Shown: positions 12,046 to 19,388 of the stretch, in pieces | Numbering within the stretch: the stretch's first letter is position 1 | Layout: each line of letters starts with the position of its first letter | Assembly: GCA_937922595.1 (NCBI GenBank) | Contig: CALAIY010000049.1 | Span: 1 to 45,032, forward strand | Direction: 5' to 3' | DNA: 45,032 nt | Origin: an uncultured Verrucomicrobiales bacterium | GTDB taxonomy: Bacteria > Verrucomicrobiota > Verrucomicrobiia > Verrucomicrobiales > DEV007 | Program-made: the position numbers and the translations under genes | Notes under the pieces: generated by a model | The model's database searches: none | What the model was told of the DNA's origin: nothing | Seen by the model: the letters and a program-made list of their open reading frames with translations, nothing else

Positions 12046-13398
12046 TTATTCTCGAAACCAGGAGTTGTGGAGAAATTCTTCGATGTTTACCTGGTTGGTA
12101 TTTCGAGTCTTTGGTGGATAGCTTACGGAGAGCATGACGAGCTTTTCGGTGCCGTTGGCGATTTCTTCTTCGGTGAAGGCGAGCGTGTCGGTGGTGATGG
12201 AGCTGCGTAGGGGGGCGTAGCCGTAGATGGTGACTTGGCGAAGGTCGTCTCGGAGGGTGAAGCAGGCGTAGATTTTTGAATTATTGAAGGCGTTTGCGAA
12301 GTAATCGCCTGGCGTGACGCGAGCGCGGAGGATGACGGGGTCGCTCGGGCGGTCGACAAGAAGATCGGTCCACGGGATTTCGCTGTAGCCGACGTAACTT
12401 TGCCAATCGGCGAGGAACGTGCGGCGGGCGACTTGCTCGAGGATGAGTGGCTTTCGGGTCTTGTCCGTCTGGACGACATCGACGGTGAAGAATTTACCGC
12501 TTTCTGAGACGGTGATGTCTTCGTCGGGAACGATACGCTCATAAGCAAATTGCTCGAAGGTGGTGGGATCGGGATGGAGGCGATCGAGGAGCTTCCCGAC
12601 GACTTCGGGCTCGCGGATGTATTTTTTGAGGGCTTTGAGGTTTTGAGCGTGGAGAAAATTGTAGGCGGCTTCGCCTGCCAACTGGCGTGCCTGACGGGCT
12701 GCGGCTTCGGGGTCTTTGGGGGCTTGGGCTTCGATTGCTTCGCGGCGGGCGCGGTTTTCCGCGGCGTTTTGCTCAGCGAGTTCGTCGGAGGTGCTGATGA
12801 GCTTGAAGGCGACCCAAATACAGAGGGCGAGAACGAGGCCGGTGAGGGCAAAGAAGACGGCGCGTGGCGTTTTGGGATCGGCGACGGTGATCGGTTGTTC
12901 GTCTGATTTTTCGATCTCCCAGCCATCGGGTTTCACATATTCGCCGTCGGCGGGAGTGGTATTGGTGAGGCGGCGCGGATTGAGGCCGATTGCATCGTGC
13001 TTATCAGGGATAAAAGTATCTTTGGCTGGCGGGGTATTTTTGCCTTGGAATTCGGGCGAGGTGCTCACGGGAGCGCGTGAAGCGGGCGCGGCGAAGGTGG
13101 CTCCTCCGAATTCGGGGCTTTGAAATCCTCTTGAGGCGGAGGGACCGGCGTCACGGGGAAGAATGCCGACAATGCGAGAGGCCGGAGCTTTGGCGGGATT
13201 GGCTGGGGGCGCGCTTGCTGATGCGGGGAGGGTGGTGTTGATGATCTCTGGCTGGAGGGCTCCGCTACTACCGAGACCGCCGCCGCAAGAGGGGCAGCTT
13301 ACGAAAAAGCTGCTTGGAGTTTCCCCGGAAATTTTGAAGTGGCCTTCGCAGTGGGCGCACTTGAGGAGGTAGAATAAGGAGTAGGGAGGAGTGGACAC
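12046..13398 (-). CDS. Hypothetical membrane protein with N-terminal zinc ribbon
   Basis: I do not recognise a named family. The 450-aa product starts with a zinc-ribbon-like motif: two CxxC pairs at Cys14/17 and Cys35/38. A long low-complexity linker follows, rich in Ala, Pro and Ser (about 50-160), then one membrane helix at about 180-201 ('VFFALTGLVLALCIWVAFKL'). A charged, probably coiled-coil segment spans 203-250 and includes 'ENRARREAIEAQ'. The last 200 residues form a soluble domain with 'EVVGKLLDRLHPDP' and 'RKPLILEQVARRTF'. The ribbon would be cytoplasmic and the C-terminal domain outside. It lies between the ABC ATPase gene (75 bases upstream) and the SlyD gene on the same strand. 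Confidence 0.55.
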   Translation of the reverse strand: MSTPPYSLFYLLKCAHCEGHFKISGETPSSFFVSCPSCGGGLGSSGALQPEIINTTLPASASAPPANPAKAPASRIVGILPRDAGPSASRGFQSPEFGGATFAAPASRAPVSTSPEFQGKNTPPAKDTFIPDKHDAIGLNPRRLTNTTPADGEYVKPDGWEIEKSDEQPITVADPKTPRAVFFALTGLVLALCIWVAFKLISTSDELAEQNAAENRARREAIEAQAPKDPEAAARQARQLAGEAAYNFLHAQNLKALKKYIREPEVVGKLLDRLHPDPTTFEQFAYERIVPDEDITVSESGKFFTVDVVQTDKTRKPLILEQVARRTFLADWQSYVGYSEIPWTDLLVDRPSDPVILRARVTPGDYFANAFNNSKIYACFTLRDDLRQVTIYGYAPLRSSITTDTLAFTEEEIANGTEKLVMLSVSYPPKTRNTNQVNIEEFLHNSWFRE

Positions 13399-15699: not shown

Positions 15700-18195
15700 C
15701 TAATCAAAGTCGATCGCTTCGGGAGGCTCTAAGCGAATACGGGCTTTATCGCTTCCCATTTTCGTCGAAATTGCTTTAATTGCCTTATCCATACTATCGA
15801 GAAGCAATTCGGAGACCGGGAGCGCCCGGAGAAGCGGCTGTTTTGAATTATAAGGATCGAAGCCAAGGAGGGTCGGCTTTGAGACAGGAATGGACTTCGC
15901 CTCTTCTTCGGCAGATCCGGTGGCCACCGATTTAGAATCGCTAGCGAGGAGATCTGCGACTTGCTGGGGACGAGGAGCACCGCCTCCATGCACTTCACAA
16001 TAATGCTGCATTTTATCACCAGGACGAATAACCTCCGTGTAGGTGCAGCGATTGAAAACCGAGCGCCCAGTCTCGAAATCGATTCCTGTTTCGTAGCAGG
16101 TCTCGGTCGCGCGATGGCCCGAGATCGAGCAAATCTCCATGGTCTGAGCGCCCTCAGGTGCTACAAATTTATTGGATGGGAAGCTTGCCAGCGACGTGTT
16201 CATCACTTTCGTCCAGACAGGCAACGCAATATCTTTCGAATACGCATCGGGGTAAATCGTAGTGCGATTCGCATCGAAGCCAACCCACACCCCGCAAGTG
16301 ACGGTACTGTTATAGCCCATGAACCAGAGATCGGTGGAGTCGTAGTGCGTCCCGGTCTTACCCGCGAAGTAGCCATTGCGATCCAACTCGTAATCGGTGA
16401 GTGCGATTGAAGCACTGCCTTCTTGAATGGCTTGCTCGAGGCAACTGTGAACTTGGAAAGACGCAACAGGATCCATCACATCCACTTCTTCCGCGATGTC
16501 TTCCGCGTCGAAGATTTTTTCGCCATCAAAACTTCGGATGAGAGAGACGATATGGTAGTCGGCGGCACGCTTTCCACCATTTGGGAATGCAGTGTAGCCA
16601 AGGCACATTTCCGAAAGTTTCACTTCGCGGGCACCCAGGAAGGTCGATGGGTATTTCCAATCTCCTGAAGGAAACCCCGCTTTTGCGGAAAGATCCTTTA
16701 CCTTTGTAAGCCCAGCTCGTTTTCCAACCTGGAATGATGGCGATATCCGACCGCCCACGAGCGCTTCGCGCGCGGATTCTTCTTGCTTCCAGGTCGTTGG
16801 CCTTTCAGCTCCCCATTCTCCTAAAATCCCAGTCGTTCCCCCAATCATGACGGCGGCATTATTCACAGGCCCAGCAGGCACAAGTGAACCCGGAAACATT
16901 TCGCCTCCCTCAAAAGCCGCCGCAAAGACGAACGGGGTAAACGCCGTCCCACCCGGGCGACGCGTCAGCAGCGCTCGATTGTATTCGCTGTGATCGAAGT
17001 CGCGCCCACCGACCATCGCCACAATCGCTCCCGTTCGGTTTTCCACCATCATACAGGCACCCTGCAAATATTTGGGAAGCGCCGGCTTCTGATCCCGCTG
17101 TTTCGCTAAAGCGACTTCGTGAAGGTATTGTTCGTAAGTTTGGTGCTCGTAATTTGGCGTTTCTTTTTCGACCCGCCCTAGCTGATCGCGCAGGGAATTC
17201 TGGGCGACATTTTGCACATCGAGATCGATCGTCGTGTAAATTTGATAGCCGCTTGCGGTCGCATTCTTGAGGCCGATTTCATTCCTTACTTGTTGGCGGA
17301 TGTAGGCTTCGGCGTAGGTGGCATTCTGAATCGAGCGATGCGGCGAAATCGCAATCGGAAGCTCTTTGAGGCGCGCACACTCGGCCGGCGAGATAATTTT
17401 CTCGGTACGCATTCTGTTCAGCACATAATTGCGCTCACGCTTCGCCCCCTTTGGGTTGTTAATCGGAGAAAGCCCATTTGGGCTTTTGATCAGTCCGCAA
17501 ATGATCGCACTCTCATCTACGCTCAGTTCCTTGGCCGGTTTTCCGAAATATCCCTGTGCTGCAGACTCAATTCCATAAAATCCCGAGCCAAAATAAATTC
17601 GATTCAAGTAAAACTCGAGCACCTCCTGCTTCCCGTAATGCTGCTCAATGCGATGCGCGAGAAATGCCTCGGTAAGCTTTCGATCAATCGTTTTTCCACC
17701 GAGCGGAAATGCGTTTCGCGCCAGCTGCTGAGTGATCGTGCTCGCGCCTTGGGTAAAGCCACCACCCTTAATGTTTTTGATCACGGCTCGCAGAATTCCA
17801 ATATAATCGACGCCCTCGTGCGTTCGAAAGCGAGAATCCTCTGTCGCAATCAGTGCATCGATAAAATTGAGCGGCACATCCTCAATCGGAATCGGCTGAC
17901 GGTTTTCCACGAAAATTCGTCCGATCTCGCGGTTCTTACGATCATAAATCACCGATGCCCGCTCCAGCGACCGCATTTCCTCAAGATTGTAAGACAGCGC
18001 CTTGTCGCGGTGAGGCTTCAAAATAAGCAAAAGAGCTAAACTCCCAAAAAATACCCCCGCGACTCCGAGTAATGCAATCCACCGCACCCAGCCACGCTTA
18101 TAGAGCGGCGTCTTATAAAGACGCACTGGGCGTGGCTTAAATGGGTTGTCGTCCTCTTCCTCTTGGGAAGGGGGTTTGATGAGATCGCCGAACAT
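15700..18195 (-). CDS. Class A penicillin-binding protein with degenerate transpeptidase site
   Basis: I chose the ATG at 18195 because it avoids overlap with the divergent methyltransferase gene and gives a typical short cytoplasmic tail; longer in-frame starts exist. The product is 831 aa with a membrane helix at about 36-58. The GT51 glycosyltransferase domain (about 105-275) has all its motifs: 'EDSRFRTHEG' (catalytic Glu119), 'GASTITQQLARN', 'RKLTEAF' (Glu176) and 'EVLEFYLNRIYFG'. In the transpeptidase domain (about 375-650) 'VGGRDF' and 'KTGT' (613-616) are present. The SxxK nucleophile motif reads T-A-F-T (417-420), and the SxN position reads G-R-I (482-484). It therefore appears able to polymerise glycan strands but not to cross-link them in the usual way. 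The neighbours are the TolC-type gene and, divergently, the MidA-like gene. Confidence 0.85.
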   Translation of the reverse strand: MFGDLIKPPSQEEEDDNPFKPRPVRLYKTPLYKRGWVRWIALLGVAGVFFGSLALLLILKPHRDKALSYNLEEMRSLERASVIYDRKNREIGRIFVENRQPIPIEDVPLNFIDALIATEDSRFRTHEGVDYIGILRAVIKNIKGGGFTQGASTITQQLARNAFPLGGKTIDRKLTEAFLAHRIEQHYGKQEVLEFYLNRIYFGSGFYGIESAAQGYFGKPAKELSVDESAIICGLIKSPNGLSPINNPKGAKRERNYVLNRMRTEKIISPAECARLKELPIAISPHRSIQNATYAEAYIRQQVRNEIGLKNATASGYQIYTTIDLDVQNVAQNSLRDQLGRVEKETPNYEHQTYEQYLHEVALAKQRDQKPALPKYLQGACMMVENRTGAIVAMVGGRDFDHSEYNRALLTRRPGGTAFTPFVFAAAFEGGEMFPGSLVPAGPVNNAAVMIGGTTGILGEWGAERPTTWKQEESAREALVGGRISPSFQVGKRAGLTKVKDLSAKAGFPSGDWKYPSTFLGAREVKLSEMCLGYTAFPNGGKRAADYHIVSLIRSFDGEKIFDAEDIAEEVDVMDPVASFQVHSCLEQAIQEGSASIALTDYELDRNGYFAGKTGTHYDSTDLWFMGYNSTVTCGVWVGFDANRTTIYPDAYSKDIALPVWTKVMNTSLASFPSNKFVAPEGAQTMEICSISGHRATETCYETGIDFETGRSVFNRCTYTEVIRPGDKMQHYCEVHGGGAPRPQQVADLLASDSKSVATGSAEEEAKSIPVSKPTLLGFDPYNSKQPLLRALPVSELLLDSMDKAIKAISTKMGSDKARIRLEPPEAIDFD

Positions 18196-18266: not shown

Positions 18267-19388
18267 GTGTCCAACTCATCACCTGCGGTGGAAACCGCGC
18301 TACACCAAGCAATCGCCGCATCCACCGCGAAGCAAATTTCCTTCTCACGCTTCATGGAAATCGCCCTCTATCACGAGCCTGGCGGGTATTATACGGAAAG
18401 CGGTGCCGCAGAAATCGGGCGAAAAGGCGATTTTTTCACAAGCGTCAGCGTCGGCGAATGCTTCGGCTTCCTTCTCTCCCACATCGTCGCCGATTGCTGG
18501 CACGCCAGCGGAGCCCCCTCCCAATTCCGCCTCATCGAGCCTGGTGCCCGCGACGGGCAGCTCTCCACAGACATCATCACAGGCCTCGCCGCCCACACCC
18601 CAGCCCTTGCAAAAATCATCGAATCCACCCTCGTCGAGCCCGGCGGCGGCCCCTACCGCTCACTCGCAGAAGCCCCAGCCTGCGCCACCCCCGGAGTTCT
18701 CATCGCCAATGAAGTAATCGATGCCCTCCCCGTTCACCGCGCCCGCTTCGCAGAAAATCGCTGGCACGAAATCCACGTCACCATCGCCGATACCGCCACC
18801 GGCTTCGCCGAAACACTCGCTCCCCCATCAAGCTCCCTCGCCGCTCGCCTCGCAGAAATCCCCACCACCGACCTCCCAGAAAACTACACCACCGAAATCA
18901 ACCTCGCCCAACGCAGTTGGCTCGCCGACGCCGCCCGCGCCCTCCCTCACGGCCACCACCTCCTTTTCGACTACGGCCATCGCGCCGCTGAATACTACCT
19001 CCCATCCCGCCACGAAGGCACCCTTCGCACCTACCGCGACCACACCTCTGGAGACGATCCACTCGACGCCCCCGGCACCCGCGACATCACCAGCCACGTC
19101 GATTTCACCGCCCTCGCCGCCGACGCCCTCACCGCAGGCCTCACCCCAATCGGCTTCGCCGATCAACACCACGCCCTCACCCGCGCCGCCGCCCCCTGGC
19201 TCCGCAGCCTCGATGGAGACCCAGAGACCTTCCGCTCCACCGAGACACAAAAACGCCTCCGCCAATTCCAGACCCTCACCCACCCCACCATGATGGGGCA
19301 GAAATTCCACCTCCTCAGCCTCACCTCCGGCACCGCCTCCCCCGCCCCACTCGAAGCGATCACCCCAAGGCTCGATCTTCAGCCTTAA
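18267..19388 (+). CDS. MidA/NDUFAF7-like SAM-dependent methyltransferase (DUF185)
   Basis: This is a 373-aa protein starting at a GTG. The N-terminal pattern 'ISFSRFMEIALYHEPGGYY' and 'RKGDFFTSVSVGECFG' is diagnostic for the DUF185/MidA family. The SAM-binding loop follows as 'IEPGARDGQLSTDI'. Further family features are 'ANEVIDALPVHRARF' and 'LLFDYGH', and 'PGTRDITSHVDFTAL'. In eukaryotes NDUFAF7 methylates an arginine of a complex I subunit; the bacterial target is not established. The gene is divergent from the PBP gene (72 bases) and converges on the SpmAB-fusion gene, sharing the four bases TTAA (19385-19388) as overlapping stop codons. The coding strand is very C-rich, as in the genes that follow. 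Confidence 0.85.
   Translation: MSNSSPAVETALHQAIAASTAKQISFSRFMEIALYHEPGGYYTESGAAEIGRKGDFFTSVSVGECFGFLLSHIVADCWHASGAPSQFRLIEPGARDGQLSTDIITGLAAHTPALAKIIESTLVEPGGGPYRSLAEAPACATPGVLIANEVIDALPVHRARFAENRWHEIHVTIADTATGFAETLAPPSSSLAARLAEIPTTDLPENYTTEINLAQRSWLADAARALPHGHHLLFDYGHRAAEYYLPSRHEGTLRTYRDHTSGDDPLDAPGTRDITSHVDFTALAADALTAGLTPIGFADQHHALTRAAAPWLRSLDGDPETFRSTETQKRLRQFQTLTHPTMMGQKFHLLSLTSGTASPAPLEAITPRLDLQP

Follow-up and report, generated by a model that had tools for sequence, protein, structure and literature searches.

A class A penicillin-binding protein lineage of Verrucomicrobiales with intact glycosyltransferase motifs and a maintained, probably non-acylating transpeptidase domain

Class A penicillin-binding proteins (PBPs) are the textbook two-headed synthases of the bacterial cell wall and are targets of penicillin. 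The window described here, a stretch of 45,032 nucleotides from an uncultured Verrucomicrobiales bacterium, carries on its minus strand a class A PBP gene with a degenerate transpeptidase domain (15700..18195; ATG at 18193-18195, stop at 15700-15702), which encodes a protein of 831 amino acids. A membrane-anchor helix is predicted at the N-terminus in the AlphaFold2 model (residues 35-68; 17992..18093, minus strand), followed by a GT51 glycosyltransferase domain (residues 90-262; 17410..17928, minus strand) that matches Pfam PF00912 with 209.5 bits against a cut-off of 27. The catalytic glutamates of this domain, Glu119 (17839-17841) and Glu176 (17668-17670), are both read in the translation, in line with an earlier note on this DNA that had called the GT51 motifs complete. 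The transpeptidase domain (residues 379-668; 16192..17061, minus strand) is barely recognised by Pfam PF00905 (28.9 bits, residues 379-637). The AlphaFold2 model has a mean pLDDT of 89.8 and a pTM of 0.83, with values mostly above 90 in the transpeptidase domain (94-98 in most ten-residue blocks), and its top solved-structure match in Foldseek is Escherichia coli PBP1b (5hlb, E 4.7e-41).

Among the features that define a bifunctional class A PBP, the protein has the KTG motif and lacks S-x-x-K and S-x-N. The nucleophile motif reads T417-A-F-T420 (16936..16947, minus strand; codons ACG GCG TTT ACC), the S-x-N site reads G482-R-I484 (16744..16752, minus strand; codons GGT CGG ATA), and K613-T-G-T616 is kept (16348..16359, minus strand); the earlier note had read all three sites in this way, and the codons and the translation bear it out. 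No relocated S-x-x-K is present within the transpeptidase domain, and the two that the whole protein contains, at 752 and 801, belong to the C-terminal tail. As far as these residues tell, the acyl-enzyme chemistry, which uses the Ser nucleophile, the Lys base and the Ser and Asn of S-x-N, is gone from the window protein.

By its architecture, namely a transmembrane anchor, a GT51 domain and a domain of transpeptidase fold, the protein passes as a class A PBP, and its placement in the tree agrees. It stays below the curated cut-off of TIGR02074 (PBP_1a_fam; 443 versus 508.75 bits) and below that of TIGR02070 for monofunctional transglycosylases (135.7 versus 182.65 bits), with 500 residues extra in the latter case. 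With bifunctional class A PBPs such as PBP1a and PBP1b (E. coli PBP1b 5hlb, A. baumannii PBP1a 3udf) it shares the domain order, the membrane anchor, the GT51 motifs, the transpeptidase fold, KTG and a Cys-containing segment near the C-terminus, but it differs in the absence of S-x-x-K and S-x-N, in a G-E-W-G-x-E motif in place of W-x-P-x-N, and in an extra conserved C-terminal tail. In its predicted mode, as a GT51 polymerase without a transpeptidase of its own, it resembles MtgA/MGT (TIGR02070), whereas it retains a full-length transpeptidase-fold domain under selection. The extra tail (residues 770-831; 15703..15888, minus strand) contains D780-P-Y782; it is conserved, restricted to the clade of the window protein and mostly of low model confidence, and it is a candidate peptide for partner binding or self-binding.

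Upstream of the PBP gene, a PF02636 (NDUFAF7/MidA-like) methyltransferase is divergently transcribed (18267..19388, plus strand), and 23 of the 41 loci, over several families, have it next to the PBP. No conserved operon partner that could account for the function emerged from these loci: only this divergent methyltransferase recurs, and it has no clear functional link. On the other side, the 450-residue protein encoded at 12046-13398 (minus strand) has an N-terminus resembling a zinc ribbon and matches no Pfam family; in nine loci, Akkermansia included, a member of its cluster lies just downstream of the PBP.

The protein is a near-universal component of its order. A family-level search gave matches in 58 of 59 genomes, and with a profile of 30 orthologues, which was used for the order, class and phylum searches, the orthologue was found in 271 of 280 Verrucomicrobiales genomes that are at least 90% complete (97%). 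At the level of the class, 102 of 286 genomes matched at E 1e-186, further families included; at least 88% of these matches are the long orthologue, which a score gap from 685 to 662 bits sets off from a shorter canonical paralogue. In the phylum-level search 33 of 241 genomes matched, all within the same class; that other orders of the class lack the orthologue holds at the score threshold used. Among the carriers is the gut genus Akkermansia (record JAFURE010000086.1, L045).

The states of the active-site motifs were read from a deduplicated sample of 109 clade members, smaller than the set of 271 order genomes with the orthologue; the genomes are largely metagenome-assembled. Position 417 is Thr in 102 of the 109 and Ser in seven. 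Position 420 is far less constrained: Lys is kept in 36 members and replaced in 73, by ten residue types (T 33, L 22, F 6, M 3, V 3, I 2 and one each of H, Q, G and A). The S-x-N motif is intact in 52 and broken in 57. By contrast with these sites, K613 of KTG is invariant (109/109), as are E119 and E176 in all 108 members with the columns filled, E460 and W461 (109/109 each) and, with one exception, E464 (108/109). The last three belong to the motif G459-E460-W461-G462-x-E464 (16804..16821, minus strand), which stands where canonical PBPs have W-x-P-x-N. Aligned by the same profile, 71 canonical class A PBPs drawn from many phyla all have S417, K420, S482, N484 and K613.

The fixed state of the clade is thus T-x-x-(variable). 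The earlier note had asked whether an orthologous clade shares T-x-x-T and G-x-I; the shared Thr417 stands, while T-x-x-T is only one among several end states. In combination, 27 members have T-x-x-K, S-x-N and K-T-G, six are fully canonical, and the remainder are degenerate in at least two places; the 27 may have residual activity. No other sampled member is as degenerate as the window protein, which alone among the 109 lacks Ser, Lys, S-x-N Ser and S-x-N Asn together and also deviates at six residues that the clade otherwise conserves. The loss of transpeptidase function that the earlier note had deduced for it appears to hold, though as an ancient, order-wide condition and not as a peculiarity of this organism.

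In a tree of 122 rows, some deep branches of which are weakly supported, the Thr clade is a single group (SH-aLRT 97-99) with the canonical Verrucomicrobia paralogue next to it. Ser417 occurs three times inside the clade, in a genus of the window organism's own family (g4), in a second genus (g226, family f86) and in a divergent sequence (L218). The arrangement in which the Thr rows form one clade with the Ser members outside was rejected (p-AU 5.7e-10, log-likelihood 197 lower), with a test group that was picked after the tree had been seen. An ancestral Ser would need at least 14 separate losses of Ser against three reversions, so the most parsimonious history has Ser replaced by Thr once and regained three times. 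Lys420 changed at least ten times on the tree and S-x-N at least 11 times, and the independent pairs that differ are too few to bear a correlation between the two losses.

The residue at 417 is coupled to that at 462. Thr417 occurs with Gly462 in 102 of 102 members and Ser417 with Ala or Ser at 462 in seven of seven, and all 71 canonical Ser proteins have a residue other than Gly there. Conservation of 90% or more in the Thr rows is seen in 133 columns; of these, only 462 has changed in every one of the three Ser lineages, against 0.02 such columns expected. About 180 sequences obey the rule without exception, with three independent switches, which are too few for significance in a sign test. 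The simplest reading, in which the contact is deduced from covariation, is that the extra methyl group of Thr takes up the room of the side chain at 462. Six sequences from two nested genera (L030, L032, L035, L036, L174, L199) have complete S-x-x-K, S-x-N and K-T-G motifs with Ala462, and do so without the canonical W-x-P-x-N. These genera represent an apparent re-activation of a pseudo-enzyme, and in the Ser417 lineages with the full S-K-S-N-K set the domain may be active.

Purifying selection acts on the transpeptidase domain across these states. In 16 close pairs, pairwise Nei-Gojobori dN/dS of the domain lies at 0.009-0.096, a rough estimate given that several pairs are close to saturation at synonymous sites. 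The values are similarly low in TxxT, TxxM, TxxI, TxxL, TxxK and SxxK pairs, and none is near neutrality. Together with the high-confidence predicted fold, these ratios of 0.01-0.10 favour selection over decay, as had been suggested from the preserved fold and KTGT. Pseudogene decay at the level of the clade was rejected on the same ratios and on the 97% retention in the order.

The genome from which the window derives, a MAG-like assembly of 3.27 Mb in 174 contigs with 92.9% completeness, has three GT51 genes: that of the window, a canonical class A PBP (C172) and a stand-alone GT51 protein of 241 residues (C145). A search for a second, canonical class A PBP, as the earlier note had advised, is thereby answered. 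The C172 paralogue (L002/L007) has the same fold and GT51 motifs at 37% identity, but differs from the window protein in having S-T-F-K, S-R-N, K-T-G and W-S-P-K-N and no C-terminal tail. The genome also encodes three class B PBPs, two SEDS proteins and eight YkuD-domain proteins, so that polymerase and cross-linking functions are available from elsewhere in the genome. Each of 17 further genomes has two to five GT51 genes plus more PF00905 proteins.

The stand-alone GT51 protein (L225:266-988) groups with a divergent Thr-type paralogue, L156 (SH-aLRT 93), and looks as if a Thr-type protein had entirely lost its transpeptidase domain. A different case is that of the second GT51 proteins of Akkermansiaceae, of about 570-640 residues (L221:2797-4551, L219:960-2798, L220:837-2759, L224:1203-2900), in which GT51 is intact, the S-x-N and KTG segments are missing and S-x-x-K is degraded (e.g., GAAFEP). 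One of them lies directly downstream of the canonical class A PBP in its genome. They share an intact GT51 and a lost transpeptidase with the window protein but are of separate origin; the GT-domain tree indicates that they are duplicates of the canonical class A PBP, and they appear to be another, independent transpeptidase loss in the same family.

Taken together, the window protein is probably a glycan-strand polymerase with a maintained pseudo-transpeptidase domain, descended from bifunctional class A PBPs. The membrane-anchored GT51 domain would polymerise lipid II, and the pseudo-transpeptidase, with its fold and KTG wall kept, would no longer form an acyl-enzyme. It could instead serve as a structural or regulatory module that docks partners, holds or senses stem peptides or nascent strands, or sets the activity of the glycosyltransferase. 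Cross-links would be made in trans by the canonical class A PBP, by class B PBPs with their SEDS partners and by L,D-transpeptidases. The history would start with a single ancient Ser-to-Thr change, permitted by Gly462, and continue with repeated drift of Lys420 and S-x-N. A transposon-based essential-genome study of V. spinosum (PMC12283558), in which class A PBPs are not discussed, found three class B PBPs and two SEDS proteins to be essential; this is consistent with, but no proof of, cross-links made by other enzymes.

A purely scaffolding role is not the only way to understand the invariant residues. The presence of Thr417 in every non-Ser member and of K613 in all 109, despite the loss of Lys420, goes beyond what a scaffold would demand and could point to residual chemistry, and the domain might still be catalytic, with Thr417 as an unusual nucleophile that is activated by K613, K/R483, E460/E464 or, in the TxxK members, the usual Lys. 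The constancy of Thr417 (102 of 102 non-Ser members), K613, E460, W461 and E464, the 27 members that retain T-x-x-K, S-x-N and K-T-G, and the interchange of Ser and Thr on the tree would all suit such an enzyme. However, the base Lys and one or both S-x-N residues are missing from the window protein and from most clade members, position 420 tolerates Leu, Phe, Met, Val and Gly as an unused site would, and the methyl swap with residue 462 accounts for the conservation of Thr as packing; a catalytic threonine is considered unlikely. Somewhat related, and also put forward only tentatively as a doubtful idea, is that the site was re-tooled around the invariant Thr. The 417/462 switch would then toggle the domain between catalysis and a non-acylating sensor of stem peptides that gates the attached polymerase, with at least two lineages back at the full S-K-S-N-K set.

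The loss might also have been selected as insensitivity to beta-lactams, leaving a polymerase that is not acylated and hence not stalled by antibiotic-producing neighbours. Such insensitivity would require losing the acylated Ser, and many of the hosts are environmental metagenome-assembled genomes, but the partner transpeptidases of the own genome are canonical and should stay targets, and the trait belongs to the ancient core of an order that includes gut Akkermansia instead of being patchy, which makes this origin quite improbable. Still less credit is given to decay, with the transpeptidase half as a remnant in the course of being lost. Its appeal lies in the window protein, alone among 109 in having lost all four catalytic residues and changed at six other conserved ones, and in the grouping of the transpeptidase-free C145 protein with L156; the low dN/dS, the retention across the order, the open frames and the invariant residues disfavour it at the level of the clade. 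As for an error of sequencing, assembly or alignment, the window comes from one MAG-like assembly, but the frame is intact, canonical controls align at the same columns, and the orthologues with the same Thr in 102 sampled genomes, single-contig ones among them, rule it out to near certainty.

Searches of an open-access library turned up no description of class A PBPs that share a Thr in place of the nucleophile, and as subscription papers were outside the scope the novelty of the lineage is provisional. For the glycan polymerase with a pseudo-transpeptidase domain that we favour, labels based on domains, such as "bifunctional PBP1A" or "penicillin target", would be wrong for these genes. The coupled 417/462 switch yields an exact rule, open to experiment, for the conditions under which threonine is tolerated at a PBP site. 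As a gene that is nearly universal in Verrucomicrobiales, it would constitute a natural experiment on the long-standing question of what the transpeptidase domain does for the polymerase besides cross-linking.
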